NCBI GenBank assembly: GCA_035079385.1
Contig: JAVHKY010000062.1
Coordinates: 434,001-498,000, forward strand
Source: Aspidiotus rigidus
Taxonomy: Eukaryota; Arthropoda; Insecta; Hemiptera; Diaspididae
Length of the DNA stretch: 64,000 nt
Direction: 5' to 3'
In this document: piece after piece, positions 14,407 to 61,053 of the stretch
Layout: each line of letters starts with the position of its first letter
Numbering within the stretch: position 1 is the stretch's first letter
Program-made: the position numbers and the translations under genes
The notes under the pieces: generated by a model
Database searches by the model: none
Seen by the model: only the letters and a program-made list of their open reading frames with translations
What the model was told of the DNA's origin: nothing

Positions 14407-14411
14407 TTCAG

Positions 14412-14600
14412 CTAGAGTGTCTTACTTTTATAATTTTCTATTTGTTTTTTACGTTCTTCCAATTCTTCCCAATAAGTTTGTAATTTTTCATTTTGTATTT
14501 CTCGTTCACGTTGTTCCTGTAAAGAATTATATCTCCCAGAGCCCACCCTTTTGAACGAGCATTCTTCAATCTCTTTGTGTTTACGTTTCTTATCCTCCAT
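14412..14600 (-). CDS. Short charged coiled-coil protein
   Basis: 62 aa, rich in Glu, Lys and Arg, with heptad-like EREIQNEKLQTYWEELEERK; probably a helical coiled coil. It starts at an ATG and sits directly upstream of the Cys-cluster gene. No family recognised; it may be a structural or DNA-associated accessory protein of the small element. Confidence 0.45.
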   Translation of the reverse strand: MEDKKRKHKEIEECSFKRVGSGRYNSLQEQREREIQNEKLQTYWEELEERKKQIENYKSKTL

Positions 14601-15202: not shown

Positions 15203-15847
15203 ATGAACTTAGTCGTAGAGAATAGTTTAGATTTAAGTGCTAACAATTTAATCATTCTGAAACAGATCGTCGCTGGTTATGGTATCGCGAAATATTATAA
15301 ACTTAGGAAATTTCAACTCATCGAGGCGATTGTCCATGCTGATTTAATGTTAGATAATAGTAATAATAATTTTGTACTTTCTCCTAAACAGCAGACAACG
15401 TTTGAAATTCATTTACCCACAGAACCTCTACCTTCAGCTAAAGAAATCGAGCAGGCTGTAGGTATTCGAAATGAAGAAGACAAAGAAGACCAGAGTGTAC
15501 TAGTGTCTATTCCATGGGAAAAAATTTTGGTTGGAGAAGAAAAACGTGAAGAAGAAATTGTTCCTGAAGAAGACTTTAGCGACAAGGAAGATAAATTTTT
15601 CAATGCATTACGTCGACCAACCAGACATCAGGAAAATGACGACGATGGATTGGAGCTCGTAAGTCCTGAAGCTGAATCGTCAGTGAGTAAGAAAAAAATT
15701 CAATGTAGACCTAAACGTTCGCAAAAAACTACTCGTAATACGTCGAAACTTGGACCTGATTGGATATTTTTTTTTCATTCAGTCCCCTTTTGGTACAGTT
15801 CTAGACTCATTGGATATATTTTTTTCATTCAGTCCCCCTTTCGGTAG
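15203..15847 (+). CDS. SAP/LEM-like N-terminal protein running into the TIR
   Basis: 214 codons. Residues about 12-48 (LSANNLIILKQIVAG, YYKLRKFQLIEAIV) form a SAP-like two-helix motif that closely resembles the first 40 residues of the PolB at 33144-37262 (NVKQLRELAR, YYYKLNKVDLIASL). An acidic middle (EEDKEDQ, EEEIVPEEDFSDKED) and a basic stretch (RPKRSQKTTR) follow. The last about 30 codons are translated terminal-repeat sequence, so the natural C-terminus is probably lost. Likely DNA-binding; no catalytic motif seen. Confidence 0.5.
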   Translation: MNLVVENSLDLSANNLIILKQIVAGYGIAKYYKLRKFQLIEAIVHADLMLDNSNNNFVLSPKQQTTFEIHLPTEPLPSAKEIEQAVGIRNEEDKEDQSVLVSIPWEKILVGEEKREEEIVPEEDFSDKEDKFFNALRRPTRHQENDDDGLELVSPEAESSVSKKKIQCRPKRSQKTTRNTSKLGPDWIFFFHSVPFWYSSRLIGYIFFIQSPFR

Positions 15848-15936
15848 AGTTCTAGACTCATACTGACATGCAAAAAAAAAAAAATATTTTTTTTTTCCAT
15901 TCAGTCCCCCTTTTAGTACAGTTCTAGACTCACACC

Positions 15937-16984
15937 TACATGCTTGTTCTTATCAACAATAGAATGCATGCGAGGTGACGACGGAATTTCCTGTAGTTTG
16001 AACCATTTTGTCTAGTGTGCGCGTTGTGCCGTTTAATATTCCCCTTGGATTCTCTACATTGGTTAATAGTCACTTTTTTTTTCACGATGGCATAAAATTG
16101 CTTTTGATCATGGAGAGCCTTCTCTTCCAAGTTCTAACTCACTTTGCTCATCAATGGTCATATTTTGTTGTACACCATGCCAAAACTCACTCTGACTTGT
16201 GGTCTGATCCAATAGATTTGAAATGAAATGATTGCTGAATATTCATCTTTTCTTTGGTTTTGTTTTCAACAGACACTTTGAAATGACAGTGAGGAGTTTG
16301 TTACAAGAAGTTATTTAATGAATCACCTCTGGACTTCAAATTCCATTGTGTATGAACAAGTCATGAAACTGTATAATATGCATTACATTTTGCATTGCTT
16401 GTCTAATCCTGTATCTTGTTCCTTACCAAAGAATAAAGCAAAAGATCTTTTATACTTTAGTGCTGTAGAGAATATTAGTCATAATGTGTATATTGTAGTG
16501 GCGCTTGCGTTGAACTATTTATTTTCTCTCTAATTTACTACAAAAAAAAAAAAAAAAAAACATTTTTCGGATTCCAATGGAACACATTAATACAATCCAT
16601 ATGAAAAGAAATTTTTTGCGCTCCAAATATTATTACTCTAATTCAAACATACTGTATTCTGAAATAAGAATATTCTGAAAGGTAATAATGAACTTTATGA
16701 GTAGAGTTCAACCTTTCATTCTACGATTATGTGGCTTCATCAATAAATTATTGTTATTTTAGTCGTACTTAATAGTCGACACCTTGAGATTGGATTTCTG
16801 TCAAAAAAGCGTTAGTCTCGACATAAGAAATACATTGAGCAAACGCCCCTCTGACAGAAAGGCCCTCAAATATTTAGTCTTCATCAAGAGACCGATTCCA
16901 CGTGACGTCAAAATCTTTATTTCTGGTCGAATGCTTGTTCTCTGCTGCTGGCTTTGGGTCAGCCATCTATATTACTAAAGTCAT
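15937..16984. other. Intergenic, no supported gene
   Basis: Short frames only. A 20-nt A tract at about 16542-16560 follows the weak open frame 16318-16533 and could mark a retroposed transcript, but no parent gene is recognisable. Confidence 0.4.
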
Positions 16985-17795
16985 TAGACTAAATCGCCGT
17001 GACGTCATTCACGGACATTCACTGATAACAAGGCGATGTTTGCTCCGCAATGACTTACCCCAACTTACGCGTAAGTTCAAAACAAAAAAAATGCTCCATA
17101 AGAAATACACGGGAACGTTTCGATCTTACGTTCAGATTTGAAAACAAGAAATAAGTCAAGAATCACAGGTACATTTTCAAAGACATGAGAACTTCCTGAT
17201 TCTAAATATAAACACGTAATAGACTAAATCGCCGTGACGTCATTCATGAACATTTACTGATAACAGGAATCGAGAGAATGCGATAGTATACTGTATCAGT
17301 TAAAAGTAAGATATCGATTCCCATAAGAATACACAGGGATCATTTCGATCATACGCTCAAATTAAAAAATTGGAAATAAGTAAGCAATTACGTGTTTATA
17401 TTTAGAATCAGGAAGTTCTCATGTCTTTGAAAATGTACCTGCGGTTTTTAACTTATTTCTTGTTTTCAAATCTGAACGTAAGATCGAAACGTTCCCCTGT
17501 ATTTCTTAATTATGGAGCATTTTTTTTGTTTTGAACTTACGCGTAAGTTGGGGTAAGTCATTGCGGAGCAAACGTCGCCTTGTTATCAGTGAATGTCTGT
17601 GAATGACGTCACGGCGATTTAGTCTATTGCTTACTTATTTCCAATTTTTTAATTTGAGCGTATGATCGAAATGATCCCTGTGTATTCTTATGGGAATCGA
17701 TATCCTACTTTGAACTGATACAGTATACTATCACATTCTCTCGATTCCTGTTATCAGTAAATGTTCATGAATGACGTCACGGCGATTTAGTCTAT
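16985..17795. repeat. Interleaved double foldback (A-B-A'-B')
   Basis: Four arms share the terminus AGACTAAATCGCCGTGACGT. Arm A (16985-17220) pairs with A' (17386-17628), and arm B (17221-17385) with B' (17630-17795). The inverted repeats are interleaved rather than nested. The arms contain CCATAAGAAATACAC-type blocks found in other MITEs of the window. Confidence 0.75.
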
Positions 17796-24150: not shown

Positions 24151-24163
24151 AGGGCCCTTAGGG

Positions 24164-24260
24164 CTTAGACCATACAACAGATAGACCGAGCATAGCAATG
24201 AATCTTTGAACGGAGGACATGATAAGAAGACACATAAGAAAATAAGAGGGACTGGAGTAG
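24164..24260. repeat. Left terminal inverted repeat of the large element
   Basis: Pairs with 38320-38419. The outer 30 bp are identical to the complement of the right end; the inner part has indels. Confidence 0.85.
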
Positions 24261-24888: not shown

Positions 24889-25551
24889 TTACTTATATAG
24901 TTTTTTATAAATTTTTAATAGCTCCTGTTTACTAGATAATTTCAATTTTATAGAATCTTTTTTTTCTTTTCGAGCTTTATTAATTTTTTTAATTTGGTAC
25001 TTGGTCAAAGGAAGGGAAATTTCGCTCATTATGGAATCCTTAGTACAAAACAAGTTCACATTTATTCCAACAGGTTGTTTATTCTCAGAAGCTGATAATA
25101 TCAGATTTTTTGAATATTCATCTAAATTCACAGGATAATTTGTGTAACTTTTCTTTGTATTCAAACCAGCACCTAAAGCTCGCTTTGCCTTCATAACATT
25201 TGTAACACCCCACGCTACCCCACGTTCACCAAGACTAGCTGAGGGATCTTTAAAACGACTCCAAGCTGCTAATTCTAAATCTTTGTCTGCAGCGTGACGG
25301 TCAGCTAATTTCTTTGACTTACTGTAGGCAATGTCATGATGCATAGCTGCTTCATCCAATTTATTTTTAGGTTTTATACCCTTCTCAAGACGTAAATCTA
25401 AGTGAGTACCAGGGCCAGCATATTGATATCCAAAAGGGATATGAGCTTCGAAAGGTAAATTATTAATTAAAGAATTCATTAGTCCTTTACCTGAAACGGG
25501 AATAGGAAATAATTTCTTGATGGCTTCTTGACGTTTCTCCTTGTAATTCAT
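24889..25551 (-). CDS. Phospholipase A2-domain minor capsid protein
   Basis: 220 aa. Residues about 38-105 form a parvovirus-VP1-type secreted-PLA2 fold: calcium-loop YAGPGT (44-49) and the catalytic pair HD within HHDIAY (71-76), followed by a helical ADKDLE segment. In viruses carrying it, this domain modifies endosomal membranes during entry. The C-terminal part (LPLTKYQIKKI, basic RKEKK) resembles the tail of PLA2 proteins in Polinton/adintovirus-like elements. The ORF is intact with a TATAAATA box at 25589-25596. It is probably an internal or minor virion protein, as judged from neighbours and domain. Confidence 0.82.
   Translation of the reverse strand: MNYKEKRQEAIKKLFPIPVSGKGLMNSLINNLPFEAHIPFGYQYAGPGTHLDLRLEKGIKPKNKLDEAAMHHDIAYSKSKKLADRHAADKDLELAAWSRFKDPSASLGERGVAWGVTNVMKAKRALGAGLNTKKSYTNYPVNLDEYSKNLILSASENKQPVGINVNLFCTKDSIMSEISLPLTKYQIKKINKARKEKKDSIKLKLSSKQELLKIYKKLYK
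24892..24899 (-). promoter_or_regulatory. TATA box (TATATAAG)
   Basis: About 32-39 nt upstream of the ATG at 24860. Confidence 0.55.
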
Positions 25552-25565: not shown

Positions 25566-25889
25566 TTAAAAAAAAAAAAGCACTTCTCTATTTATACTAT
25601 ACTTTACTATTTTCAAATTAAATACAAAGATAACTACAGTAGTACTAAATATTCCTGCTGTATACTTTACTACACGGCGTATTACTATTCTCCTCTTCTT
25701 CATTTTCTTGAACCAGTAATCTTCCTCGCATGTTTTCTCCAAATCATATTGGCGACGATTTTTCAATTTTGTTCTACGAAACCATTTTTTATACCATGGT
25801 GGTGACGATGGTGGAGCTACCGGATCACCCATTTCTTCGAATGCTTTGACTCTTTCTTGCCACTCGATCATCCAATCATCCACTTCCAT
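25566..25889 (-). CDS. Basic single-pass membrane-type protein
   Basis: 107 aa. Acidic-aromatic N-terminus (MEVDDWMIEWQ), a proline segment (APPSSPPW), a strongly basic middle (KKMKKRRIVIRRVVK) and a hydrophobic stretch at about residues 75-92 (YTAGIFSTTVVIFVFNL) that could span a membrane. No homologue recognised. It lies between the PLA2 gene and the DUF-type gene and does not overlap either. It might be a small virion or membrane protein of the element; this is inference from composition. Confidence 0.5.
   Translation of the reverse strand: MEVDDWMIEWQERVKAFEEMGDPVAPPSSPPWYKKWFRRTKLKNRRQYDLEKTCEEDYWFKKMKKRRIVIRRVVKYTAGIFSTTVVIFVFNLKIVKYSINREVLFFF
25589..25596 (-). promoter_or_regulatory. 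TATA box (TATAAATA)
   Basis: 38-45 nt upstream of the PLA2 gene ATG at 25551. Confidence 0.6.
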
Positions 25890-26012: not shown

Positions 26013-26917
26013 TCAAATTTCTCGTATCTCTTGTAAAATATTAACGAGTTCGTTAACCAGAAGTGGGCTATTATTTCCCGATTTAATCTCTCCATACACA
26101 ATGTACAATCTATCAAGCAATTCTTCGAAATTATTCCAATAAACATACTCAACTGGCGCATTAGTTAGAATTTTTCAAAGACCCGACCCACGTTTTGGGC
26201 TAAAACTAATGAGATCCTTAAATTCGTCAGCTAATGATTTAGGTTTTGTTGGTGTACTATAATCAATAGTTGGCTCCATATGCTTCAATACACCACGATT
26301 ACCGAGTATAGGTTTAATTATTTTTTTATATTTCATTCCACCGCTAGATTTTACTTTGAACTGTGTGGGTCATTATTTACACGATAAGCGTGTGTACTCA
26401 GAAGAATTTCTTCATAATTTCTCAAGTCAGTTTCATCGAAGTTTTTAGGGTCTTTTAAGGTTAGGAGAGACCACAATCCGTCAGTTCCCTCATATTTTTG
26501 TCCATCTTCAAATACAAAGGCGTCATCTATTATACGGACAGGTTTATTACCTATATAGAAGTACCTGTCTTCAAATCGAATTCCAAAGGTAGTATCCACA
26601 GCCTTATTTTGTGTAACGTGTAAATTCAAGTATTTTATAGCTGTTTCTCCAAATAACTCCTCAGCCTCCTCTTTTAATTTCTCTTTTATCTCACCTGGTT
26701 CCATAGGTATTTGTAGAATTTGTGTTGGACGGTTTTCCAATGTAGCTTTTATATCGTGAAGGGGTTTAATAATAGGTCTATATTCATCTTTCAGTACTTT
26801 CTGATGATTTATGAAACTATGTCTAATTTCCTCATATTTTTCTCGTAAGGCCTCACCGGTTTCTAGATAATCTTTTACTAAAGCATCCATTTTTGACAAC
26901 TTTTTACTAGTGAACAT
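26013..26917 (-). pseudogene. Broken DUF8207-like element protein
   Basis: The intact 5-prime ORF (26351-26917) has a helical N-terminus, then FGIRFEDRYFYIGNKPV and YEGTDGLWSLLTLK, the YxGTxGLWxLL signature of a protein family common in arthropod virus-like elements (DUF8207, from memory). The conserved tail continues in another frame after about 26357 (GGMKYKKIIKPIL), is interrupted by an in-frame TGA at 26175-26177, and resumes (VEYVYWNNFEELLDRLY) to 26013. So there is one frameshift plus one stop. The TATA box at 26919-26926 touches the first ATG, so the second ATG at 26890 is the likelier start. Function unknown; common near capsid genes. Confidence 0.68.
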
Positions 26918-26918
26918 C

Positions 26919-26926
26919 TATTTATA
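26919..26926 (-). promoter_or_regulatory. TATA box (TATAAATA)
   Basis: 29-36 nt upstream of the ATG at 26890, and only 2 nt from the earlier ATG at 26917, which argues for the inner start. Confidence 0.55.
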
Positions 26927-26929
26927 CAC

Positions 26930-27652
26930 CTAATCTTTTTTTTGTATAATTTTCTTTCCCGATGACGTCTTTTCTTCCTTAGTTGACATAGGTGTAATTA
27001 TCTGTACAATAACTTCTTCCTTGGTCAAAATTTTACTTTCATATACATTCAGCGTTCCGCTAGCTAGACCTTCACCGACTGATTCAAAATCATCCTGGTG
27101 GTTTTTCATATAATTACGAACATTATTATTAGTATGGTCGTTAATAATGAAGAATACACCTTTATCTTTCGAGAATAAACTGTCTTCTTTTTTCACAACC
27201 ACATCTTCATTAGAGTAACCAAAAAATAGACTAAAGCGTTTATATTTATCAATGTACTGATGAATATTACTAGTTTCAACAGTATTCATTTTAGGCCACA
27301 TATGTTCGGGTACACTTCCTAAGTCACTGTGTTTTATAATTAAGACACTGTAGTAATTATGAATAAAAATATATTCCCAAAAACCATTAACTGGTTTTGA
27401 ATATGTCTTAGTGGAGGTTTTTTTCTCATGTATATGAATTCTCACAAAAATATGATAATCAGTTTTTAAGTGGTTGTAAAATGGTGTTGTATCCAGAGTT
27501 TCAATATCGGTAGTTGAAAATTTTTCTTGTTCAATTAGAATTGTATAGGGTACATGTTGGAGAGGTACTGGTATATCACCAGAAATATTTAAGGTTGCTT
27601 CAAGACGTGTGACCCTTGCCTTGAGATGTTCAAAATCACTTCTACTAACCAT
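26930..27652 (-). CDS. 240-aa element protein, unrecognised
   Basis: Intact 240-aa ORF. A short coiled-coil-like start (DFEHLKARVTRLEATL, residues 6-21) precedes a beta-rich body with several aromatic strands (FWEYIFIHNYYSVLII) and a Lys-rich tail (SSGKKIIQKKD). No catalytic motif visible. A coiled coil followed by a beta domain would suit a trimeric spike or fibre, but I do not recognise a family. TATATAAA at 27657-27664 lies only 5 nt before the ATG, so promoter placement is uncertain. Confidence 0.6.
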   Translation of the reverse strand: MVSRSDFEHLKARVTRLEATLNISGDIPVPLQHVPYTILIEQEKFSTTDIETLDTTPFYNHLKTDYHIFVRIHIHEKKTSTKTYSKPVNGFWEYIFIHNYYSVLIIKHSDLGSVPEHMWPKMNTVETSNIHQYIDKYKRFSLFFGYSNEDVVVKKEDSLFSKDKGVFFIINDHTNNNVRNYMKNHQDDFESVGEGLASGTLNVYESKILTKEEVIVQIITPMSTKEEKTSSGKKIIQKKD

Positions 27653-27657
27653 TTTTT

Positions 27658-28367
27658 TTATATAGGTCGAAAACCCAGGGTTAAATTATTATTTTCTCCT
27701 CTCAACTCCAACAAATTATTATCTTGATCAGTTATTCTAATTACCAACTCGTAAATTACAGACGTGTTCAATGTAAAATAACAAATAGGATTTGGCTCCT
27801 TAATCACTTGACTACCTATTTTACTTATATCTAATGGAAAATCAAACAGAATATTTGTACTACGGTTCAAATCTTCAATATTTGAACGAATTAAATTACA
27901 ATGTATTTTCACAGTATTTATACTATGTATATTGACAGGTTTATCAGAAAATTCTACTCTATTAGGGCTAATTACTCGGTTTTCAGAGAAACCTAAAACT
28001 TTACCTATATTGTGAGGAGAGTCAAATGAAATCCTCCAACTAGTTTTTATTTTTATTTTCAGACTACGTTTTACAAATTCAATACTTGTCTTAGAATGAT
28101 TAATAATTTCATTACTTGCTAGAGCTTCAATAATATCATCTAATTCATAAAAACCAGGCTCAATATGTATTTCATGTCTAACTGTTCCTGCTGTTCCTGG
28201 TTCATGAAGTATTATAACATTATTATCATTCCTAATATTATACATGGTATTCCAAAAACAAAATGCTTTAATCCAACTTCGTACTGACCCTTTAACATTA
28301 TACCCTCAGGATCATACTCACGGATAATTTCAGAACTTGTGTCTGTTAAAGAAATTTGAAAAGTCAT
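27658..28367 (-). pseudogene. Penton-like minor capsid protein with a frameshift
   Basis: The long ORF (27658-28245, 195 codons) has features of the penton-like proteins of Polinton/adintovirus-type elements: FYELDDIIEAL, IGKVLGF, a strand series, and the ending ITDQDNNLLELRGE. About 41 codons of matching N-terminus (starting MTFQISLTDTSSE, with YEVGLKHFVFGIP) lie immediately upstream in a different frame from the ATG at 28367. The frame changes at about 28248-28255, so this copy carries a small indel. A TATAGATA box at 28397-28404 is correctly spaced for the 28367 start, which supports the longer gene. Expected role: single jelly-roll vertex protein. Confidence 0.68.
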
Positions 28368-28396
28368 CCTTACTCTTCCTTAGAGGAATATCTATC

Positions 28397-28404
28397 TATC
28401 TATA
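28397..28404 (-). promoter_or_regulatory. TATA-like box (TATAGATA)
   Basis: 30-37 nt upstream of the ATG at 28367 of the penton-like gene. Confidence 0.5.
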
Positions 28405-28405
28405 C

Positions 28406-29420
28406 TTAATCTCGTAAATAGTCGGTATTGTCGCAATAATTTTCAAGTTTAAAACCAGATTTTGCGTATGAAGAAATTCTATGCCATGTGTTATGAGTAT
28501 GATAATGTTCAAAACATTTTATCTGACAGTTATTTGAATTATTAATATCAGAGTAGGTTGAGTTGCGCATTTTTAAAATTTGTACAACAAGGTAATGAAA
28601 TGACTCCAAATAAGCTCCATCCTCTTCATTCCATAAAAGTAAGGGTACCTGATCATCTGGATTATGTAGACTTGTATGATGTCGTTTTGGGTCAACAATA
28701 AATTTTATCGTTCTATTTAATAAAGGATGAATTACACCTTGTAATTTACGTTCAGTATTTTTCAAAATTAGTAAATGAGGACCATTAGGTTCAGCAAAAG
28801 ATGCTTTAATTTCGTAATTATCGTCACTTTTATCTTTGAAAAAATCTGTACGCATGAAGGTTCCACCGTTTGTATCATTTTTCCCTTTTATCATTGTAAA
28901 ATTACATATTAGTACTGGTTCATTTTCATTGGAACAAGACTCGTTTATACGTGCAATAAATGTATACGTATTTTTGTAATTTATTTGAGTTGAAAATTTC
29001 GGTCTGACGGATATATGATTAACTTTTGGAAACTTCTCTTCATCGGAGAAATGAAAAAGAATTGTAGTGTCATCATGTACCTATTGAGGTCTTAGTTGTA
29101 TCCCAATTTAATTTTAATATCTTCCCTATAGGACTTACAGAATAACATTGTTTCTTACTGTAGTCAGTAAGTTTAGTATTATTATCAGAGTAGATATTAA
29201 ACACGACACAGTTATCCTTATTAAAGATTTCAATTCTATACAAAGAATGATCGGTCACATTTTCTAGGAATAAAACATCCAAACCTTGTTGTAATTCAAG
29301 GTACATTAACCCGTTAACGTTGTTGAAAGCTGTAAAATCATCGTAAGTGTAGGAATACATTTGTAGTTGGGAGGCTATTACCACTTTAGTAATAGCTAGT
29401 AGAATAAAAATCATTATCAT
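28406..29420 (-). pseudogene. Secreted glycoprotein-like protein with a frameshift
   Basis: The first ORF (29073-29420) starts with a hydrophobic signal-peptide-like segment (MIMIFILLAITKVVIA) and stops at 29073-29075. The frame offset by one nucleotide is open from there through 28894 to the stop at 28406, and reads similarly (FHFSDEEKFPKVNH, VRPKF). NxS/T sites occur in both parts (NVTD, NNTK, NESC, NFTM, NSTY). The simplest reading is one gene of about 335 residues broken by a single-base change near 29077-29082; programmed frameshifting or a small intron are alternatives. Probably an extracellular or envelope-type protein; family unknown. Confidence 0.6.
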
Positions 29421-29453
29421 CTTGTAAATTTAAAAAACTATAATCGTGGTCTT

Positions 29454-30035
29454 CTATGTATACAGATATTTACGTAAGTAATCTCTGTACATGAGAGCTT
29501 TTCTGTAAGCGCAACGTAATTCTGAGTGTCTACGAAGGTATTTACTACAACTACTATACTTATATTCTTTTAATTCCCGCTGACCTCTATAGTTGAAAAT
29601 ATCTAAATCTATTACAGGTCTATTCAATAATTGTTCCAAATACTTTACTCTTTCTGAACCTTTAATATACACCTTGTCAGCATTCTTCAAAGTTTTTTTC
29701 ATTAAATCCAACACATCTTCTTCAGGAGTGAATCCTAAATCCCAACCAAGACCGTGAATATTTTTTGTCACAAAGTCAACTTGTTTTTTTAAGCGAGGAG
29801 ATAATCTGTAATAACAAGTTGGAGGTCGAATAATACGATGTCTTACAAAACTACTATGTACAGATATAATACAAATTTCCTTGGGAAGAAAATCAGGTGC
29901 GTGAAATCCTTGAACATCGACAACGTACGAGTCAACATGGTTAAATGCCTTGAGATTTTTGTAAGATAGTGCAGCTATGTATACCCTTTTTAAATGATTC
30001 GTGAACGTCGTAAATTTGTTGTCTGGTTTTCGCAT
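29454..30035 (-). CDS. DxQGF protein, possible RNase H-fold nuclease
   Basis: 193 aa. Contains YVVDVQGFHAP (about residues 37-47) followed by LPKEICIISVH, HGLGWDLGF and ADKVYIKGSERVKYLE. This D-x-Q-G-F...KE pattern recurs in arthropod element proteins and suggests a degenerate RNase H/DnaQ-like strand order, but the full acidic set is not evident. The ATG at 30035 lies inside the 3-prime end of the TBP gene (95-nt overlap in another frame). Basic Arg/Tyr-rich C-terminus. Role unknown. Confidence 0.6.
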   Translation of the reverse strand: MRKPDNKFTTFTNHLKRVYIAALSYKNLKAFNHVDSYVVDVQGFHAPDFLPKEICIISVHSSFVRHRIIRPPTCYYRLSPRLKKQVDFVTKNIHGLGWDLGFTPEEDVLDLMKKTLKNADKVYIKGSERVKYLEQLLNRPVIDLDIFNYRGQRELKEYKYSSCSKYLRRHSELRCAYRKALMYRDYLRKYLYT

Positions 30036-30495
30036 TAGTTATGATAACTTTCCCAGATTTAAAAACTATGACTGTTACACCTTTACGATAAATTAACCCT
30101 GGAAAAATTTCTGGCTCATAATCCGAAAATTTTATATTTTTATAGTAGAAATTTGTAAAACGTGGTCGAAACCCTAAATCACAGCTAGCGACAATATTTG
30201 TTATTCGAAAATTCAAAAACTGTATTGATGAAAATCCCAAGTTTTTTAACCTGTCAGCAATCATACGTGCTGCTTCTTCCGCACTTTCTTCATTTTTTAT
30301 ACCAGTTAGCACTATCTTCCCTGAAGCAAATATTAAGGTTGTAAATTTTATTGGTTCTCGTAGACGTAGAATGATAGGGTTAAATTTTTTAGGATTGTAC
30401 TTAGTATCTGGATCAACTGAGGCTATCTGACTTAAATTGAGTTTACAACCTAAGTCGACTGTACACATAATATTCTGTATCACTGGGCAAGTCAT
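29941..30495 (-). CDS. Element-encoded TATA-box binding protein
   Basis: 184 aa, essentially only the TBP saddle core. Repeat 1 (residues about 4-92) has IQNIMCTVDLGCKL, YNPKKF, LREP and LIFASGKIVLTG; repeat 2 (about 95-172) has ITNIVASCDLGF, FSDYEPEIFPGLIYR and VIVFKSGKVIITNAK. The four DNA-intercalating Phe positions (F38, F56, F131, F145) and the two central Asn residues (N8, N100) are all present. No N-terminal extension. The start is the ATG at 30495, since the longer open frame upstream has no ATG; a TATAAATA box lies at 30532-30539. It is flanked by element genes on both sides, overlaps the next gene and has no introns, so it belongs to the element. It likely directs transcription from the element's own TATA promoters. 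Confidence 0.93.
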   Translation of the reverse strand: MTCPVIQNIMCTVDLGCKLNLSQIASVDPDTKYNPKKFNPIILRLREPIKFTTLIFASGKIVLTGIKNEESAEEAARMIADRLKNLGFSSIQFLNFRITNIVASCDLGFRPRFTNFYYKNIKFSDYEPEIFPGLIYRKGVTVIVFKSGKVIITNAKTRQQIYDVHESFKKGIHSCTILQKSQGI

Positions 30496-30531
30496 CGTGA
30501 AAAGAGTGAGAAAAAATGAAATCGACACTTA

Positions 30532-30539
30532 TATTTATA
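30532..30539 (-). promoter_or_regulatory. TATA box (TATAAATA)
   Basis: 37-44 nt upstream of the TBP ATG at 30495, so TBP could autoregulate. Confidence 0.6.
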
Positions 30540-30957
30540 GTAAAAAATGTGGGCAATCTTTTGTCATTTCCCAACTATATTCTTGACATCCCCAACACCA
30601 AACATAATCATCATCTAATAACTCGTTAATTTTAGCTTCAAATTTATCTATATCATATACAGGTACTTTATCAAAGTCGATACAATAGCATAAAGTATTT
30701 CGCTGAAGTATATCGCAAGCGCAGAACTCACAAGCCTGAGGACAGAAACAATACATGTATCTAGGTAGCACAAATTCCACAGTTTGCTTGTTATATTTTA
30801 AAAAATACATGTAATTACTCTTCCTACTTGTTGGTAAATGAATTTTCACATTGTCTAGCTGAATTTCCATAAAATCATCTAGAAATTCCACCTTTTGAAC
30901 TGTGTATATTACATTAGGTTGTAAAGTGTGAAAGTCAACAAGGACAAGCGACTCCAT
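30535..30957 (-). CDS. Cysteine-rich 140-aa element protein
   Basis: 140 aa. The N-terminal half has LQPNVIYTVQKVEF and LDNVKIHLP; the Cys cluster CFCPQACEFCACD (about residues 74-86) and a C-terminal CWGCQEY...DCPHF follow. It is homologous to the 97-aa ORF of the small element at 14113-14406, which shows the family is conserved and under selection in two distinct elements. Many Cys and one His suggest zinc binding. A TATAAATA box at 30999-31006 is correctly spaced. Function unknown; possibly a regulator. Confidence 0.65.
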   Translation of the reverse strand: MESLVLVDFHTLQPNVIYTVQKVEFLDDFMEIQLDNVKIHLPTSRKSNYMYFLKYNKQTVEFVLPRYMYCFCPQACEFCACDILQRNTLCYCIDFDKVPVYDIDKFEAKINELLDDDYVWCWGCQEYSWEMTKDCPHFLL

Positions 30958-30998
30958 CTTTGAGAAAGAATAGTAAGAAGTAACTTGGCTTCTACAGC

Positions 30999-31006
30999 TA
31001 TTTATA
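30999..31006 (-). promoter_or_regulatory. TATA box (TATAAATA)
   Basis: 42-49 nt upstream of the ATG at 30957. It overlaps the stop codon of the 39-aa ORF. Confidence 0.55.
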
Positions 31007-31121
31007 CTCCTGTAGAGGATATAACTCGGTTTGTAAGAGGATTGTAGACTGCTTGTTTATCCATAACCATAACACAGTGAATGACAGTTTTGGCGGGTAA
31101 ATTCTCACGCCAGTTGAACAT
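31002..31121 (-). CDS. 39-aa ORF with NPLT motif
   Basis: ATG at 31121, stop at 31002-31004, filling the gap between the capsid-like gene and the Cys-rich gene. The peptide contains AVYNPLTNRVISSTG, similar in style to the N-P-x-T-G-R-x-I motif of small adaptor domains in large DNA viruses. It is very short and could be chance. Confidence 0.35.
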   Translation of the reverse strand: MFNWRENLPAKTVIHCVMVMDKQAVYNPLTNRVISSTGV

Positions 31122-31147
31122 AATTCTAATATTTATCAGAGATTCTT

Positions 31148-32209
31148 TTATAACGGTAGGAATTGATGAGAACAGTCAATGGCAATAATAGGGTACTTTG
31201 TCAAAAATGTATTATAATCGATTAAAGGTTCAACTTCTTCCACATGTCTTCCATAGTAGGAAACTTTGAATTGATTGAACATATGGTACAAATTACCGCA
31301 TTTCAACTCAGAATACTTCAAATTTAAGCGCTCGCGTGGATAGTAAACGTTATTATTCAACAATACTTGAACATTCTCTAAATTACAAAAATCAAATTCA
31401 GTGTCCAACTTATTATCAACATCGGTCTGAAACCCTAATAGAATATATTTACATTTTGCATAGGCGACTGGGAAATCCCAAGTATATTCACTACCTATAG
31501 GTGGAGTAATATTTTGATAGAACCATTGTCTATAATTCAATTCGTAATTCTTATTGTTTAAAATATCTTTACGAATCTGAGTTTCAAAGTTTATATTAAA
31601 TTTTATTTGAGGTACCCTCCACACAATACTTGTTAAACTAAAATTAACTTTATACCCTGAAGTAGTATCTACGAATAAAATCGCGTTGGTATTATCAGTT
31701 GTATTCCTATAGAACGTTAATTTTTGAGGCATACGATAAAGAAAACTTTTACAGTCTTCAAAAAACCCCATTAATATAGAAAGAGGTATAGTGATGTAAA
31801 AATATCGTTTTTTGTTCAGTATATTTGTGTGAGAAGTAGAATTTATTTTCCAACCTGCTGTATTATAACGTAAATCCCGATCAAAGGACGCTAATCCTTT
31901 CATAAAAGTTGAAATACCAGGTTTACGAATTGTATCAATTTTACAATCTCCAATATAATAATCAATCCTATCGAAAATATGTAGTATTCCATTATTTGTG
32001 AAATGAATTTTATCTGTGTCTATCTCGGCGGCTACAGACTTGTCTTTTTCCGCCGAAAGAACACCTTGAATAATTAGTAAACTTTTAGAAGGTTGAGTTA
32101 CAATCTCATTTAATACTGAGATACTAAATTCCGACCCCGCTGTATCAAAATTTTCAGTGAGGGAGGGACGGTAATCAAAATATTCAAAACTTTCGATAAC
32201 GTTATCCAT
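31148..32209 (-). CDS. Candidate major capsid protein (jelly-roll)
   Basis: 353 aa, intact. Beta-rich throughout. The C-terminal third has VYYPRERLNL, LYHMFNQFKVSYYGR and YPIIAIDCSHQ, a pattern I recall from capsid-like proteins of insect and cnidarian virus-like elements. It is shorter than the roughly 500-650-residue double jelly-roll capsid proteins usual in Polintons. It starts at an ATG with a TATA-like box (TATACATA, 32238-32245) about 30 nt upstream. It lies between the ATPase and other virion genes, consistent with a morphogenesis module. The capsid assignment is inferred; structure prediction would settle it. Confidence 0.6.
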   Translation of the reverse strand: MDNVIESFEYFDYRPSLTENFDTAGSEFSISVLNEIVTQPSKSLLIIQGVLSAEKDKSVAAEIDTDKIHFTNNGILHIFDRIDYYIGDCKIDTIRKPGISTFMKGLASFDRDLRYNTAGWKINSTSHTNILNKKRYFYITIPLSILMGFFEDCKSFLYRMPQKLTFYRNTTDNTNAILFVDTTSGYKVNFSLTSIVWRVPQIKFNINFETQIRKDILNNKNYELNYRQWFYQNITPPIGSEYTWDFPVAYAKCKYILLGFQTDVDNKLDTEFDFCNLENVQVLLNNNVYYPRERLNLKYSELKCGNLYHMFNQFKVSYYGRHVEEVEPLIDYNTFLTKYPIIAIDCSHQFLPL

Positions 32210-32237
32210 TTTTATTAGGCTAGGGAATAATTAGCTC

Positions 32238-32245
32238 TATGTATA
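32238..32245 (-). promoter_or_regulatory. TATA-like box (TATACATA)
   Basis: 29-36 nt upstream of the ATG at 32209. Confidence 0.5.
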
Positions 32246-32260
32246 CTACTTGAAACAGTG

Positions 32261-32923
32261 TTAAAATTTTCTTTTATACTTACACCTATCATTTTCCAAG
32301 TCAACAACAAAAAATCCATAAGCTTCACGCCAACATGTATTACATAATGCTTTAAATTTTTCAAAACTTAAATCTGTTATATACTCTAAATATATTTGTC
32401 TCAAGTTGACCAAATCCTGGCGAAAGAGGATGAGATAATTGAAATTTTCACGAATACCACTCTTCTTGGAAATTTTATTATATGCTTGACTGAGATAGAA
32501 ACAAGAAATGTCTCTGTGACGACCACGTAGAAAGAAATTAGCTATTTTATCTTGATTTTCAGTTAGGACATCGTCAAACACTATGACAGAATTTCTTTCT
32601 ATACTTTCAGGGTCTGGTAGAAAATTGCAGGAAGTATATGTGTGAAATGTTATGCTCTTAGCATTCTTCTTCTTGTTGTAACTTGTGACCAAATCTCGTA
32701 AAAAACTATATTTTTCTTGCACAGCTGTCTTGGAACACAAGTAAATATGACAAAAGGGTTTTATATGTAGTAAAATTGTGAGTAAAACATTTGTCTTACC
32801 CCCTCCACTTGGACCAAAAATGCCTGCTCTTAAAATATTAGGAAACATTTCAACAGTTCTTTTAAGGTTTGGTTTTGTGTCAAAATTTATCACACTTATA
32901 CTATTTCTCAAAGGAGTAGCCAT
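32261..32923 (-). CDS. A32/FtsK-like genome-packaging ATPase
   Basis: 220 aa. Walker A GPSGGGKT (residues 37-44), Walker B VIVFDD (about 112-117), and a sensor-like FYLSQAY (141-147) after a RGRHRD segment. This matches the HerA/FtsK-superfamily packaging ATPases of Polintons, virophages and large DNA viruses, which drive DNA into capsids. The length is normal for the family and the ORF intact. The ATG at 32923 has a TATAAATA box at 32956-32963. The gap to the capsid-like gene is 51 bp. Confidence 0.88.
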   Translation of the reverse strand: MATPLRNSISVINFDTKPNLKRTVEMFPNILRAGIFGPSGGGKTNVLLTILLHIKPFCHIYLCSKTAVQEKYSFLRDLVTSYNKKKNAKSITFHTYTSCNFLPDPESIERNSVIVFDDVLTENQDKIANFFLRGRHRDISCFYLSQAYNKISKKSGIRENFNYLILFRQDLVNLRQIYLEYITDLSFEKFKALCNTCWREAYGFFVVDLENDRCKYKRKF

Positions 32924-32955
32924 AATGTATTGAAAAATTCATAATTATTTATATT

Positions 32956-32963
32956 TATTTATA
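32956..32963 (-). promoter_or_regulatory. TATA box (TATAAATA)
   Basis: 33-40 nt upstream of the packaging ATPase ATG. Confidence 0.6.
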
Positions 32964-32970: not shown

Positions 32971-33145
32971 CGGACCCTCCACCACCCACTACTCTAGTAG
33001 CGCCGACATTCTATTCCCAAAAAATCGACCAAAACCAACCAAAAACGAGCAAAAACAACCAAAATCGACCAAAAAACAACCAAAAACGACCAAAATCGAC
33101 CGAAAACGACCAAGGACCCTCCACTACTCTAGTAGCGTCGACATT
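32971..33145. repeat. Direct repeats flanking a CCAAAANCGA tandem array
   Basis: 32971-33010 and 33114-33145 are near-identical (CGGACCCTCC..., CTACTCTAGTAGCG, CGACATT). Between them is an imperfect array of ACCAAAATCG/ACCAAAAACA units, about 100 bp. It separates PolB from the ATPase gene. Confidence 0.7.
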
Positions 33146-36100
33146 AATACTTATATCCATAAGGTACAGTGTCATAATTTTCTAAAATAATACGTTTATC
33201 AAAGTTGAAAGAGAAAGTCTTAGTCTGGTCTTCATTCACCAATTGTTTTGTCGTTTTATTCCTAACAATTTGATTATTAGTGACTTGAATTTTTTCAATT
33301 TCACCATCGATCAGTTTTTCCATGGCTTCAGCATTCAATTTTTCAGCATTTTTATGGTGAAGTGTGAAACCTTTAATTTTTGTGACTTCTTTTTGTTTGT
33401 CAGTCTTATAATAGTACGATTTTGGACCAGTAGTTAGAATATTTTCTATGAAACCTCCGTCCAATTCATCAGTCCACTCACCAAGGAGGTCTCCAGTCTT
33501 TACAGTATTTTTCCCATCGTTATAATACATGATAGAGTCTGTGTCACAATAGATCACAGCCTCTCCTAATACAACCATTTCTTTGTACAAACGTAGACGT
33601 GCGTGGGCTGTAGTGAATATAGCTACAAAAATATTAACATTATAATTATTCTTAACGTAATACTCTTTAAATTTGTATGTAATTTGAACCATTTCATCGC
33701 TAATAAAGATTAAATTTACATCTTCGAGTCTTTTATCTAATAATAATTCGTAAAATCTAGACGGATCGGTCACAAATTCATTCTGAGCCATATTATTACG
33801 TTGACCAAATTTTCCATACAACGAATTCATCGCTAGTTTTGCTAGAGCTCTTTTTACAGGGTTTGGTTTAATATTTCCTAAATCTAATTTTATACCCTGC
33901 CGTTTTTCCACATCCTCGGCATATGCTTTGTTGGAGGGATAATTATGAGGGCTAGATTCTAACTTAATTTTCATAAAATCGTTAATATAACCTTTAAAAA
34001 TATTCGTACTACTCTTAAAGTCCCAGACTTCGTAAATATCTAAAATTTTATAGCCTGTTTGAAGAGCAACTTTCACCTCCTCAGTCGCCCAAGTTCCAAC
34101 AAAGGCACGCTTCTCAACAGAGTGGATACATCTACGTGAACAGGATTCAGCACAGGCTCTACACAAAGCAAAAACTAATTTTTCGGACTTATTCATTTTA
34201 ATCTTAGCGGGTAACGTGGGAATATACAAATTTTGAGGAGGCAAAACTTTACATTTCATCAGACCAAACCAATTTTTATCATAAGTCTTAGGGTTAAAAA
34301 TTTTCTTAGGGTGGTCAATAGGAAATTTGTCGTAAAATAAGACTGATGGGTACAACGAGCACACGTCCACATATTTTATATTTTTTACTTTATTAGAGCG
34401 AGCTTTCAATTTAATCGCTTCTGTACGACCACCAAAGTACGCGTCGCGAGGATTCAAAGGTTCGACTAATTTTACATTTTTATACTGTTTATACAGAGGA
34501 GATGTTTTCCATTCACAATCCCAAATTTCTACAACTTCCAAGCCTGCTCGTTTCAATTGTTCAGTCCGTTCTTTAGTCTTTTCAAAGAGGTCTCCCATTT
34601 TCTCTTTCTTAACATTATTTACAGTCTCCTCCCTGTAACACCTCAAACAACCGTGCCAGAAGCAACTATGGAATTGATAAACCGTGTTGGTCTCAGAGTC
34701 AAATCCATCAACTTTATCTCCACAAATTTTCATTTCTCCACCATTTAGAGCGTGTTGAATATTTGGGTTTTCAAATGAATTCAACCACGCGATTGAAGAC
34801 TTAGAATACTTATCCTTAAGATCTTCATTAAAAACACCCAATGTGTCAGATTTTAAATACTTATCGCGAAAAATACCCATACAAACAGAGGGGAGGGTGA
34901 CATATTGAAAAGGGTCAACGTTGGCTATATCCAAAAATTCATTTCTTAATTCTAAACAACTACGTCTAAGTATATCTACATCCGAATGGCAATACTCTAG
35001 TAAGTCTTTTTTCAAATTAAAAATGTAATTTTCGCGGACTTTTTCCACATACCAGTTCAAGAACGCTTTACGAGCATCTTTTTTCATTGTATCATAACCG
35101 TAATATTTTTTATTAGGGAGTGGTCCGATATAATCTTCATTCACAATGGTGTTGAAGAAGTGAGGAAAGTATCCCTTTTTCAACTCTTTGAGACTGAAAG
35201 TTTTAGGAAAAGTGGACAATGGGGCCGCGATGAAATTAAAACTATCAATAATTTTTAAACGTAAATCGGGAACTTCTAGAAACATAAGTTTAGTTCCATT
35301 ATAAATTGTATATGGTTTTATAGTATTTTGAACACAATATTGCATAATAAATTGACTATCGTAACCCTTAGCATAATGAGCAATAGCTGTATAACATTTA
35401 TGATTAGGTGAAATCAGCCAGTTACAGAATTCATCGTTTGAGTGGAAAACAAACTTTTTACCTTCAAAATCGTGGGCTACAACTAAATTAGGAATATGAG
35501 TACCAGTTTCTTGCTGGCATTCGTAGTCAAAGAAAATATACTTTTCGGTATACTTACATTTTTTATTCTCTTTCTGAGGAAGTTGAATTTTTCTTTTTCT
35601 CACTTCAACTCTCGGTCCCTCATAATTTTCACATTTTATACCTAAGGTTTTAAAAGATTCCTCGTGGTTATGGAAACCTTTACAAGATAGACTATTTTTT
35701 GTTACCTCTTTTGCCTCGTCGTAGGCAGCATTCAATTTTATACATGTTTCGTGACTACCACCTTTATCCGGGTGATTTTTTAAAATTAATTTTCTAAAAT
35801 TATGTTTAACGACTTCGCGAACATCTATATCATTTACAATACAGTTGTGTTCCTCAAAAGGTATTTCAATTTGTTCTTCAATTTCAATATATTTAGGTGG
35901 GGCACAATTTAGACAACCGAATTTACATCGACCACCCTTCGACTTAATTTTTCGCATATAACATTCATGCTCACTCATTTTTACTTCTTCTTTACAATTG
36001 AAACATTTTTCAAAACCACAACCATGGTCTTCATGTCGAGTGCATATTTTAGCACATTTATTACATTTATAGGAGACTAAACATACTGAGGTTTGGTGTT

Positions 36101-37262
36101 CACGGTAGCATTCTTCATTAAAACAATACCGATTGCATTCCTCACAAAAAATCTTATTTTTACTCGAGATATCATGTTCCTCTTTCATACACAGAGGACA
36201 TGGAGGTGTTAATTTCTTACACTGGTGCGTATTTTTTTTATGGTAAGCCTTATTACATCTATGACAGAAGAACGATTCTCCAAAAAACGCGGTCATAGAA
36301 GAAATTAAATCATAGTGGTTACCATTCTTATACAAATAAATTTTTATTTCACGTTCGTGAGCGCCGTTGTAAATTACACGATTCAAATTTTCAGCGCAGA
36401 CTACCTTAATCTGAATATCTAATAATTCTTCTACATTACGAATATCTTCTAAAGTAAATCCCTCCTCATTATATTCACCTAAACGCGAACATAAATCTTC
36501 AGCGAGCTCAGTTTGAATTTTTCGACCCCATCTAATAGCTCGTATATTAGCGGGAGTCAATTTTCTACCTAATATTACATCCGTGTGATAAGTTAAACCT
36601 ACAAGGATCGCTCGGGGACAGCATAAATTGTCAGTATTTTTAATCTGTACAATACATCTTTTTGTATGCTTATCTTTGCTTAAATTAATAATTCTTCGCG
36701 CACCTGACGATCCTTTAGGCATAGAAATAAATTGAAAATGAAAAATACAGTCGAGTAGGTCGACTGCTTCATCAGATTCCAAGATCTGGCAAAGTTTTTC
36801 ACTTAATTTTATAAGAATGTCGTCACCAGAAGACAGAACTCCGGTGGAAATATAACCGCGGGTAAAATTAGAATTTTCTACGCTTACGTTCAGTTTATCT
36901 CCGTTTTCAAAATTAACGGACTTCTTTGCAAAAACAAATAATTCATTCATACACGCTCTAACAATATTACCCTCCTTAATTCTAGGCATCTTTTTCTTAA
37001 GCGTAATTTTAAAATGTTTTTCAGTAACCCCAAATTTTGTTCTGTGACGACTAGTTCCAGGTACCTCTATAATATTTATAAAACTAAGACCACCACCACC
37101 ATAGTAAGTTTTTTCATTTTTTTGGATGTTAGTAATATTTACATTAGCGTTAGTTAACGAAGCAATTAAATCTACTTTATTAAGCTTATAGTAATATCTA
37201 ATATGTACAGAGCGAGCGAGCTCGCGTAATTGTTTCACATTGTAGCCCTGAAAAGCTTCCAT
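33144..37262 (-). CDS. Protein-primed-type family B DNA polymerase with OTU-like, zinc-ribbon and J-domain regions
   Basis: 1372 aa from the first ATG (37262); the open frame extends 18 codons upstream without ATG. Order: SAP-like motif (6-40); OTU-like cysteine protease region with DNLCCPRA (about 211-218) and NGNHYDLI (about 313-320); four to six Cys/His zinc ribbons (333-477); J-domain-like helix pair with HPDKGG (497-502); exonuclease motifs FDYEC (578), AHYAKGYDSQF (628) and YCHSDVDIL (757); a Vsr/PD-ExK-like insert FHSCFWHGC...EIWDCEW (864-918); polymerase motif A DVCSLYPS (966), motif B KLAMNSLYGKFG (1142), motif C YCDTDS (1238) and GPKSYYYK (about 1279). All catalytic residues are present. 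It replicates the element genome. Long 5-prime leader with a TATA box at 37404-37411. Confidence 0.93.
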   Translation of the reverse strand: MEAFQGYNVKQLRELARSVHIRYYYKLNKVDLIASLTNANVNITNIQKNEKTYYGGGGLSFINIIEVPGTSRHRTKFGVTEKHFKITLKKKMPRIKEGNIVRACMNELFVFAKKSVNFENGDKLNVSVENSNFTRGYISTGVLSSGDDILIKLSEKLCQILESDEAVDLLDCIFHFQFISMPKGSSGARRIINLSKDKHTKRCIVQIKNTDNLCCPRAILVGLTYHTDVILGRKLTPANIRAIRWGRKIQTELAEDLCSRLGEYNEEGFTLEDIRNVEELLDIQIKVVCAENLNRVIYNGAHEREIKIYLYKNGNHYDLISSMTAFFGESFFCHRCNKAYHKKNTHQCKKLTPPCPLCMKEEHDISSKNKIFCEECNRYCFNEECYREHQTSVCLVSYKCNKCAKICTRHEDHGCGFEKCFNCKEEVKMSEHECYMRKIKSKGGRCKFGCLNCAPPKYIEIEEQIEIPFEEHNCIVNDIDVREVVKHNFRKLILKNHPDKGGSHETCIKLNAAYDEAKEVTKNSLSCKGFHNHEESFKTLGIKCENYEGPRVEVRKRKIQLPQKENKKCKYTEKYIFFDYECQQETGTHIPNLVVAHDFEGKKFVFHSNDEFCNWLISPNHKCYTAIAHYAKGYDSQFIMQYCVQNTIKPYTIYNGTKLMFLEVPDLRLKIIDSFNFIAAPLSTFPKTFSLKELKKGYFPHFFNTIVNEDYIGPLPNKKYYGYDTMKKDARKAFLNWYVEKVRENYIFNLKKDLLEYCHSDVDILRRSCLELRNEFLDIANVDPFQYVTLPSVCMGIFRDKYLKSDTLGVFNEDLKDKYSKSSIAWLNSFENPNIQHALNGGEMKICGDKVDGFDSETNTVYQFHSCFWHGCLRCYREETVNNVKKEKMGDLFEKTKERTEQLKRAGLEVVEIWDCEWKTSPLYKQYKNVKLVEPLNPRDAYFGGRTEAIKLKARSNKVKNIKYVDVCSLYPSVLFYDKFPIDHPKKIFNPKTYDKNWFGLMKCKVLPPQNLYIPTLPAKIKMNKSEKLVFALCRACAESCSRRCIHSVEKRAFVGTWATEEVKVALQTGYKILDIYEVWDFKSSTNIFKGYINDFMKIKLESSPHNYPSNKAYAEDVEKRQGIKLDLGNIKPNPVKRALAKLAMNSLYGKFGQRNNMAQNEFVTDPSRFYELLLDKRLEDVNLIFISDEMVQITYKFKEYYVKNNYNVNIFVAIFTTAHARLRLYKEMVVLGEAVIYCDTDSIMYYNDGKNTVKTGDLLGEWTDELDGGFIENILTTGPKSYYYKTDKQKEVTKIKGFTLHHKNAEKLNAEAMEKLIDGEIEKIQVTNNQIVRNKTTKQLVNEDQTKTFSFNFDKRIILENYDTVPYGYKY

Positions 37263-37403
37263 CTTTCTATCAGCCTGGGTTATCACCCCAAGATTAAGTG
37301 CATCAGACACTGACAAAAACTTTGAAAAAATATCTAGTCAAGACAGAGATGTTCTCTCGAAGGAGGCTGTAGGCGCAATGAAAAATACAGTCAATGGGAC
37401 CTG

Positions 37404-37411
37404 TATTTATA
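37404..37411 (-). promoter_or_regulatory. TATA box (TATAAATA), PolB promoter
   Basis: About 142 nt upstream of the PolB ATG, further than for other genes of the element. Confidence 0.45.
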
Positions 37412-38319
37412 GTTTTTTTGGTGATCTATCTGGCTATGTATACTCGGTAGGCCTATGAGAAACAGTGGGCTAGGCTCATAGAGTGTATGAGAGCTGTCTG
37501 GTTATGTATACTTGGTAGAAAAAATCTGAATACTCCTAAATCAAAGAGAGCTATCTCTCTCATACAATGGTGTACTTCATCATCTAAATGTAATTGGATG
37601 TTAACTAATCACCAGGAATGCGATATCATACAAATGTAATTAGGTTTATTTGTAGACACGTGTTTTTTTTTTTTTACTTTTTTTTGAAATCATCACCATG
37701 GAATGTAGTACAGATGTAAACACATGGTAATTCAATTTTCATTCTCGATTATACACCTCATTATCTAAATATAATTAAACGATAACTGATTTCCTATATG
37801 CATATACAGTGTGAAGATACTCAATGGGGAAACATGATCTCATATTCCGAAATTGAAAATAAAACTCATCAATTATACACCTCAATATCTAAATGCAATC
37901 GAGCGTAACGGAGATTAAATTTTCATACAAGTTAATTAAAATCATGATAGGAAAAAAACTCATTATCTAAATGCAATCGAGCGTAACGGAGATTAAATTT
38001 TCACAAGTTGATTAAATTTTCATTCTAATACAATAAAATAAATGTCACAGGTGCATGAATCAATGGCGAATGAGGATGAATCATGGGCGATAAATCATGC
38101 GTGACGAAACAGGAAAAAATTATCATCGAAAAAAATCGAAAAAAATTTTTGTCATTTTTTTTTTTTTTTCATGGCCCCGTGACATTGACCACTATCATAG
38201 AGGTCAAGTGTACCCAAAGGGGTCCCTTACTACTGACTGGACCTTGTTTACAAATTTGATGGGCGGCGCGGGTGTACGGTGTGTTTCACTGCTCCGCGCG
38301 TTCACCCGCGTTGCCTTCA
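37412..38319. other. Non-coding terminal region of the element with direct repeats
   Basis: Contains the repeated motif (C)AT(T/C)ATCTAAATGTAAT at about 37568, 37751, 37883 and 37961. The last two sit in 40-bp near-identical blocks (AATCGAGCGTAACGGAG) at about 37885-37925 and 37963-38003. Also (G)CTATGTATACT(T/C)GGTAG twice near 37433 and 37503. Candidate replication or regulatory region; no gene. Confidence 0.5.
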
Positions 38320-38419
38320 TTGAGGTCCAGTCCCCCTTATTTTCTTATCATGTCTTCCGTTCAACGCGTTGTACACGCGTATATGGTCGATGCTCGGTCT
38401 ATCTGTTGTATGGTCTAAG
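38320..38419. repeat. Right terminal inverted repeat of the large element
   Basis: Complement of 24164-24260. A short open frame (38097-38462) crossing it is not a gene. Confidence 0.85.
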
Positions 38420-38623
38420 CCTTAGGGTTAAATCATTACTGTTATTTTTAAAATTTCTCTAAATAAATTTATGAGCAGTTTCTTCTTCATTTTGATCTGA
38501 TTGCCTGCTGCATATATCTGGTCAACATCATACCCACTTAACATTTTGTTGATGATTTGTTTGTTATTTGTTAATTATAATGCAAAAAAAAATGTGGTAT
38601 TTTCTTGTTAACCCTAAGGGCCC
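38420..38623. repeat. Remainder of a MITE used as target by the large element
   Basis: Ends TTAACCCTAAGGGCCC (38608-38623). The complement, GGGCCCTTAGGG + TTAA, is split by the large insertion: GGGCCCTTAGGG at 24152-24163 and CCTTAGGGTTAA at 38420-38431. Confidence 0.7.

Positions 38624-60998: not shown

Positions 60999-61002
<4 letters not shown>

Positions 61003-61051
<49 letters not shown>
61003..61051. repeat. (TA)n microsatellite
   Basis: About 24 TA units; the first duplication copy has only about 7 (58486-58500). Confidence 0.9.

Positions 61052-61053
<2 letters not shown>

Follow-up and report, generated by a model that had tools for sequence, protein, structure and literature searches.

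A TATA-binding protein gene in a Polinton/adintovirus-type element of Aspidiotus rigidus

The DNA analyzed here, designated as the window, is a stretch of 64,000 nucleotides (nt) from Aspidiotus rigidus (Hemiptera: Diaspididae; assembly GCA_035079385.1, contig JAVHKY010000062.1, positions 434,001 to 498,000). It includes an integrated element of the Polinton/adintovirus type, recognized by its family B DNA polymerase (PolB), packaging ATPase, capsid protein, phospholipase A2 (PLA2), and target-site duplication, and this element encodes a TATA-binding protein (TBP). The TBP gene is a long-standing, constrained element gene rather than a recent insertion from the host. As judged from sequence features, the protein probably steers host RNA polymerase to TATA boxes of the element itself.

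The TBP gene and its relatives

The initial annotation recognized the 184-residue protein encoded at 29941-30495 as the two-repeat TBP saddle with nothing added, which is correct; the gene lies on the minus strand. Both TBP repeats are present and nothing is appended (two stretches of PF00352, E-value 1.4e-45). The saddle fold was confirmed through structure prediction and fold search. The AlphaFold model, based on 22 sequences, has a pLDDT of 93.5 and a pTM of 0.84, with a TM-score of about 0.87 against human TBP, and the top solved folds are human, yeast, and plant TBPs (TM-score 0.83-0.88 for most, identity 43-46%). The sequence match to human TBP has an E-value of 6e-44, and the identity to the host's own TBP is about 48%. 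F38, F56, F131, F145, N8, and N100, annotated as DNA-contacting, line up with the human positions that we take to contact DNA, and the set of DNA-intercalating Phe pairs and central Asn is complete.

The gene is intronless, while the host TBP core is spread over several exons, and it is flanked by the open reading frames (ORFs) ORF140 and ORF193 inside a block of replication and virion genes, as had been described. ORF193 overlaps the TBP gene by 95 nt (29941-30035). The overlap had been cited as evidence for an element gene; it is real in the window but was dropped as weak. In the six sister copies of the element, the match to the first ~33 residues of ORF193 is broken into pieces that are in a different frame from the remainder, and in type B elements (see below) the two genes do not overlap.

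The ratio of nonsynonymous to synonymous substitution (dN/dS) indicates constraint. It is 0.19-0.23 for TBP between the window and five of the six sister copies, and 0.09-0.10 for the capsid, 0.17 for the ATPase, 0.18-0.22 for ORF140, 0.14-0.16 for ORF162, and 0.18-0.19 for ORF195. Among the sister copies alone, the TBP value is 0.22-0.55, calculated from very few changes.

The host genome includes 34 TBP matches. Seven are of the window type (type A, the window included), nine of type B, two of lineage C (L026 and L027), and four of lineage D (L028, two in L029, and L031). The rest are the intron-split host TBP (L032), a host TRF2/TBPL1-like gene (L030), an intronless host-like paralogue (L025), the latter two named by reading of the sequence, and nine other rows. 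These nine include fragments; L024 and L033 are decayed pieces adjoining ORF140-like sequence. Three short TBP-like pieces were seen on C28 (3.82-3.84 Mb), and further fragments on C20, C2, and C52 (9.88 Mb). The paralogue L025 (C1:8376100-8386000) is divergent, 53% identical to the host TBP, with no neighbouring element gene.

The gene order around TBP is identical in 6/6 sister copies, and the same neighbours are found at 9/9 type B loci; these counts (7/7 with the window, and 9/9) refer to loci found by the TBP search. The TBP frame is open to near the end in four of the six sister copies, although L014 aligns over 174 of the 184 residues only. The two remaining copies have one internal stop each, which in L011 comes late. 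Type B TBPs are 63-64% identical to the window TBP, are all open (9/9), and differ from that of L019 at 0-5 of 510 nt. The TBPs of lineages C and D are 33-42% identical to the window TBP, and are accompanied by ATPase, PolB, and integrase genes (L026), PolB and integrase genes (L027), or an adjoining capsid gene (L028 and L029). The lineage D capsid and TBP units of L029 (C28:2860500-2866500) form a palindromic pair, face to face. In L031, a RING-finger protein gene (464-955) adjoins the TBP gene.

According to the initial annotation, relatives lacking TBP at a clean boundary would point to a host insertion. Relatives without TBP do exist. A copy on C54, whose ATPase and capsid are each 99% identical to those of the window, has lost the whole block from ORF140 to PLA2 and not TBP alone (5 kb read). 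L041 is more distant and belongs to lineage E, which has about ten copies; it carries genes for PolB, ATPase, capsid, ORF193-like, ORF195-like, ORF188-like, and PLA2 proteins, and has no TBP, including at the syntenic place.

The main tree includes 72 rows, with mirusvirus, nucleocytovirus, and TRF1 proteins left out. Types A and B group with their metagenomic relatives in a set of 24 rows (support 98/96), which grows to 30 rows with lineage C (95/54) and 31 rows with lineage D (77/79). For this tree, the program issued warnings about long branches and an unsettled bootstrap. In a reduced tree, made by removing 12 rows (long ones, five archaeal-type, and two of lineage C), a single branch parts 28 element-type rows from 32 cellular rows (99/97). 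When the window TBP is constrained to join the host TBP, the fit worsens by 142.7 log units, and this grouping is rejected (approximately unbiased test, p = 4.65e-5). Nesting within recent host TBP copies, set beforehand as counter-evidence, was thus not seen, and a host TBP retrocopy was ruled out by this test, the trees, and the intron-split host gene. It is very improbable that the gene is a recently captured host copy without function in the element. Its cell-like sequence is the only feature in favor of such a copy; the rejected grouping, the dN/dS constraint, and the recurrence across lineages all argue against it. The view of the initial annotation that this is an element gene is upheld by its same place in the sister copies and type B loci, the two deeper lineages, and the tree test.

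A metagenome search with the TBP gave 2418 matches, of which 120 were listed. By the tree, at least 25 metagenomic TBPs are element-like: 21 among the 120 matches listed (P0002-P0007 and P0009-P0023), and P0210-P0213. Six of the 25 are on contigs equal in length to one carrying an ATPase relative, among 86 such relatives (14851, 12174, 9227, 5555, 3681, and 2609 nt), and equal length was taken to suggest the same contig. In a control by eye, 1 of the 99 other listed proteins shares such a length, in the crowded short range (903 nt, P0112 and P0131). In three metagenomic proteins (P0004-P0006), TBP is fused to a SAP/Rho_N-like part like that at the N-terminus of the window PolB (33144-37262). 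In scans of IMG/VR, neither TBP nor the packaging ATPase had any relative, and this collection is therefore uninformative on how common TBP is in the group.

Conserved residues, TATA boxes, and the predicted function

Residues were counted in 31 element-type TBPs, and loops were compared with 33 cellular rows as well. Among the DNA contacts, F284, F301, and N253 are kept in 31/31, F210 in 30/31, and F193 in 23/31; the F193 position is Tyr in 6/6 lineage C TBPs. The second Glu for TFIIB contact is kept in 31/31 and the first in 17/31. Four helix-2 positions of the window TBP are changed (K to M, Y to I, R to D, K to N). In this helix, 8/8 A-like proteins have lost the Lys of the KY pair, but the position is basic in 13/16 B-like proteins. 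In cellular TBP, TFIIA, NC2, and Mot1/BTAF1 are contacted by basic residues of helix 2; with these residues changed, escape of the window subclade from TFIIA, NC2, and Mot1 is expected. The helix-2 changes are presumed to fall in a basic patch on the N-terminal lobe that contacts TFIIA, TAF1, BRFs, and Mot1 (PMC7221094); the residue numbers for human and yeast are likewise our assumption. According to the same paper, two Glu of the C-terminal lobe contact TFIIB, the first being ~40% conserved in viral TBPs.

Of 35 element genes, 14 have the exact motif TATAAATA in the 100 nt ahead of them, compared with 0.57 in shuffled sequences and 0/35 in antisense. Each lineage contributes: 5/14 genes in type A, 3/8 in B1, 3/6 in B2, and 3/7 in E (shuffles 0.23, 0.10, 0.10, and 0.14, respectively), where B1 and B2 are the two elements of type B described below, and two B2 genes common to B1 were excluded. 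One type A match, ahead of ORF188, is 9 nt from the ATG and too close for that start. TATAAA alone precedes 22/35 genes (5.3 in shuffles, 3/35 antisense). In 369 host blocks, TATAAATA is present in 1 and 3 on the two strands.

These features are consistent with a private initiation factor, as the initial annotation proposed, and we consider this moderately likely. The bare TBP core would bind the element's own TATA boxes, and host TFIIB would bridge it to host RNA polymerase II (Pol II) at the element genes; no TFIIB-like gene was found among the element ORFs scanned with Pfam. The probable targets are the genes for capsid, ATPase, and accessory proteins, after additional DNA templates have become available. 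In the window subclade, TBP may escape TFIIA, NC2, and Mot1/BTAF1 and keep the TFIIB contact. The gene, fold, conserved residues, constraint, recurrence, and TATA boxes were computed; from these we infer binding, partners, and timing.

Several observations weigh against a private initiation factor. The motif TATAAATA was picked after the upstream sequences had been viewed, and TATAAA is also present in 10/41 blocks of PolB coding sequence. Lineage E (L041) has the same boxes (3/7 genes) yet no TBP, and thus the boxes do not require TBP. The type B and lineage C TBP genes show no TATAAA in the 100 nt upstream, so self-activation would not be a general feature. Only 4/16 B-like proteins retain the first TFIIB-contact Glu. 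The repeat-2 loop is unusual in length in nearly all element TBPs: it has 13 residues in 21/24 A/B-like proteins and 20-23 in 6/6 of lineage C, versus 16 in 33/33 cellular rows. This side of TBP contacts TFIIB-type factors, and the partner may therefore differ.

The altered loop length would also suit a TBP serving RNA polymerase III or another TFIIB-type factor (BRF-like) instead of Pol II. Such a partner is improbable: the genes that it would serve encode proteins, and most of their starts have TATA boxes 30-83 nt upstream. A decoy for host TFIIA/TFIIB, suggested in the initial annotation, found no specific support. A TBP that ties up host TFIIB or other factors, or occupies host TATA boxes, could damp host transcription or defence, and the loss of regulator-binding helix-2 residues in the window subclade would fit a dominant competitor as well. 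However, the full DNA-contact set is kept, the element genes have strong TATA boxes, and a pure decoy would have no need to conserve DNA-binding residues over such divergence. We regard the decoy as unlikely, if somewhat less so than the other alternatives. Between these two in probability, and also unlikely, is an architectural role, in which TBP would bend TATA DNA during replication, packaging, or integration of the element rather than act in transcription. Its position adjoining replication genes and the SAP/Rho_N-like part shared by PolB and the metagenomic TBP fusions favor this role, whereas the invariant second TFIIB-contact Glu and the placement of TATAAATA upstream of genes, with none in antisense in these upstream stretches, speak for transcription.

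The window element and the two type B elements

The features of the window are listed in Table 1. The minus-strand gene order is PolB, ATPase, capsid, ORF140, TBP, ORF193, ORF115, ORF162, ORF195, ORF240, ORF188, ORF107, PLA2, and ORF173.

Table 1. Positions of the element, its genes, and TATA boxes in the window.
Feature	Position	Strand	Remarks
Whole Polinton/adintovirus-type element, 13,979 bp	24256..38234	genes minus	termini AGTAGTTATATCCCCC... and ...GGGGTCCCTTACTACT, identical 6-bp flanks
Target-site duplication GACTGG, left	24250..24255	.	perfect 6-bp match to right flank
Target-site duplication GACTGG, right	38235..38240	.	perfect 6-bp match to left flank
PolB with N-terminal SAP/Rho_N-like motif	33144..37262	minus	DNA_pol_B_2 3.4e-49; Rho_N 0.001, below cut-off
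A32-type packaging ATPase, 220 aa	32261..32923	minus	Pox_A32 1.3e-7; 86 relatives in metagenomes
Double-jelly-roll major capsid protein, 353 aa	31148..32209	minus	PF21738 1.9e-35
ORF140, Cys-rich, precedes TBP	30535..30957	minus	kept in type B
TBP, 184 aa	29941..30495	minus	PF00352 1.4e-45, fold, homologues
ORF193, after TBP	29454..30035	minus	kept in type B and L041
ORF195	27658..28245	minus	kept across types A, B, E; no Pfam match
ORF188	26351..26917	minus	kept in B2 and E; no Pfam match
PLA2-domain protein	24889..25551	minus	Phospholip_A2_4 2.1e-10
Two TATAAATA boxes upstream of ATPase gene	32946..32963 (32956-32963 and 32946-32953)	minus	
TATAAATA upstream of ORF140	30999..31006	minus	
TATAAATA 44 nt upstream of TBP start codon	30532..30539	minus	six sister copies carry TATAAAAG there
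TATAAATA upstream of PLA2 gene	25589..25596	minus	

PolB is of the protein-primed type, as indicated by the match to DNA_pol_B_2 (organellar and viral); its first in-frame Met is at 37262, and the ORF is open from a TTG at 37316. In the Pfam scan, ORF140 and ORF193, like ORF195 and ORF188, matched no family. PHROGs gave PolB-type matches, one endonuclease match inside the PolB ORF, and otherwise families of no named function. No integrase match was found in the window copy, while an rve integrase is present in L034, L026, L027, and L042. No virion-maturation protease was found in the window; protease-like ORFs were recognized in L034 and L041 by eye only.

The window copy has no long terminal inverted repeat, its termini being short and similar only, while one of 252 nt (86%) is present in the sister copy L034/L035. 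A truncated copy with a lost left end was ruled out; the terminus and target duplication at 24256 indicate a complete insertion. Compared with its sisters, the window copy is a mosaic, with DNA identity of ~87% over 26223-32923, ~73-74% in the compared part of PolB, and 98.8% at 37261-38195. The element sits within host DNA that forms a 77% inverted repeat (24156-24256 and 38326-38427). Elsewhere in the window, 13558-15941 includes a short piece like the type B left end (72-94%) with terminus-like repeats in opposite orientation on both sides, possibly a miniature derivative; 16982-17795 contains nested inverted repeats (96-98% complementary); and 58001-64000 shows strong positive GC skew (0.14-0.27).

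Two complementary elements of type B were found, each integrated as a complete unit with a 6-bp target duplication. B1 carries PolB and TBP, as seen at C61:1898734-1911785 (GTTACA; read at L036 and L019) and C10:1122484-1135978 (AACATG). At nine B1 loci, no ATPase, capsid, or PLA2 match was found in 10 kb, and no integrase match. B2, of which one was read (C12:3815040-3828063, CACATA; L040, L042, and L043), carries ATPase, capsid, PLA2, integrase, and a PolB fragment, without TBP; its kin number 12 by ATPase and 14 by capsid. The two share the left end (96.5% over 2.7 kb), the first 625 nt of the PolB body (99.4%), the ORF234 region (98%), and the right terminus (98.5%). The closest spacing of B1 and B2 in these lists is ~0.54 Mb. 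The plain alternative is that B1 and B2 are complementary deletion derivatives. A two-part DNA virus is a tentative possibility, in which B1 TBP would switch on the B2 capsid genes in trans via TATAAATA boxes, linking replication to virion production with host TFIIB and outside host TFIIA/NC2/Mot1 control. No report of a Polinton-type virus with a divided genome turned up in the literature search.

Comparison with known systems

Polinton/Maverick and adintovirus-type elements have in common with the window element PolB, an A32-type ATPase, a double-jelly-roll capsid, PLA2, and a 6-bp target duplication, as well as the integrase of sister copies. The window element differs in carrying TBP and lacking integrase. 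In line with the initial annotation, no report of TBP in Polintons or adintoviruses was found in the open-licence papers searched.

Other viral TBPs are known. Nucleocytovirus TBPs have the same two-repeat fold and are usually paired with a viral TFIIB (PMC7221094), whereas here a cell-like TBP is in a 14-kb element, in which no TFIIB was found. In a fold search, the BFVD viral TBPs are 8-22% identical to the window TBP among 50 listed of 54 with E-values up to 0.001. Mirusviruses, nucleus-dependent DNA viruses, have TBP in 59% of genomes (PMC10132985); unlike the window element, they have HK97-type capsids and far larger genomes. TBPs of haloarchaeal tailed viruses are virus-borne too, but only 25-26% identical and from archaeal hosts. 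ORF24, the TBP mimic of Kaposi's sarcoma-associated herpesvirus (KSHV), is reported to redirect host Pol II to viral late promoters, similar to the role proposed here; that mimic is inside a larger protein of a six-protein complex, whereas the window protein is a plain TBP core. Cellular TBP and TRF2/TBPL1 share the fold and DNA contacts, and the element TBPs are on a separate branch, with changes in the loops and in helix 2.

Small nuclear DNA viruses are generally regarded as dependent on host general transcription factors. The cell-like TBP in a 14-kb element suggests that even such viruses take over promoter recognition at its first step. A truly two-part type B would amount to a Polinton-type virus whose genome is divided. 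The protein is a natural TBP of minimal size, possibly independent of TFIIA, NC2, and Mot1, and it offers a handle on how integrated Polintons wake up.
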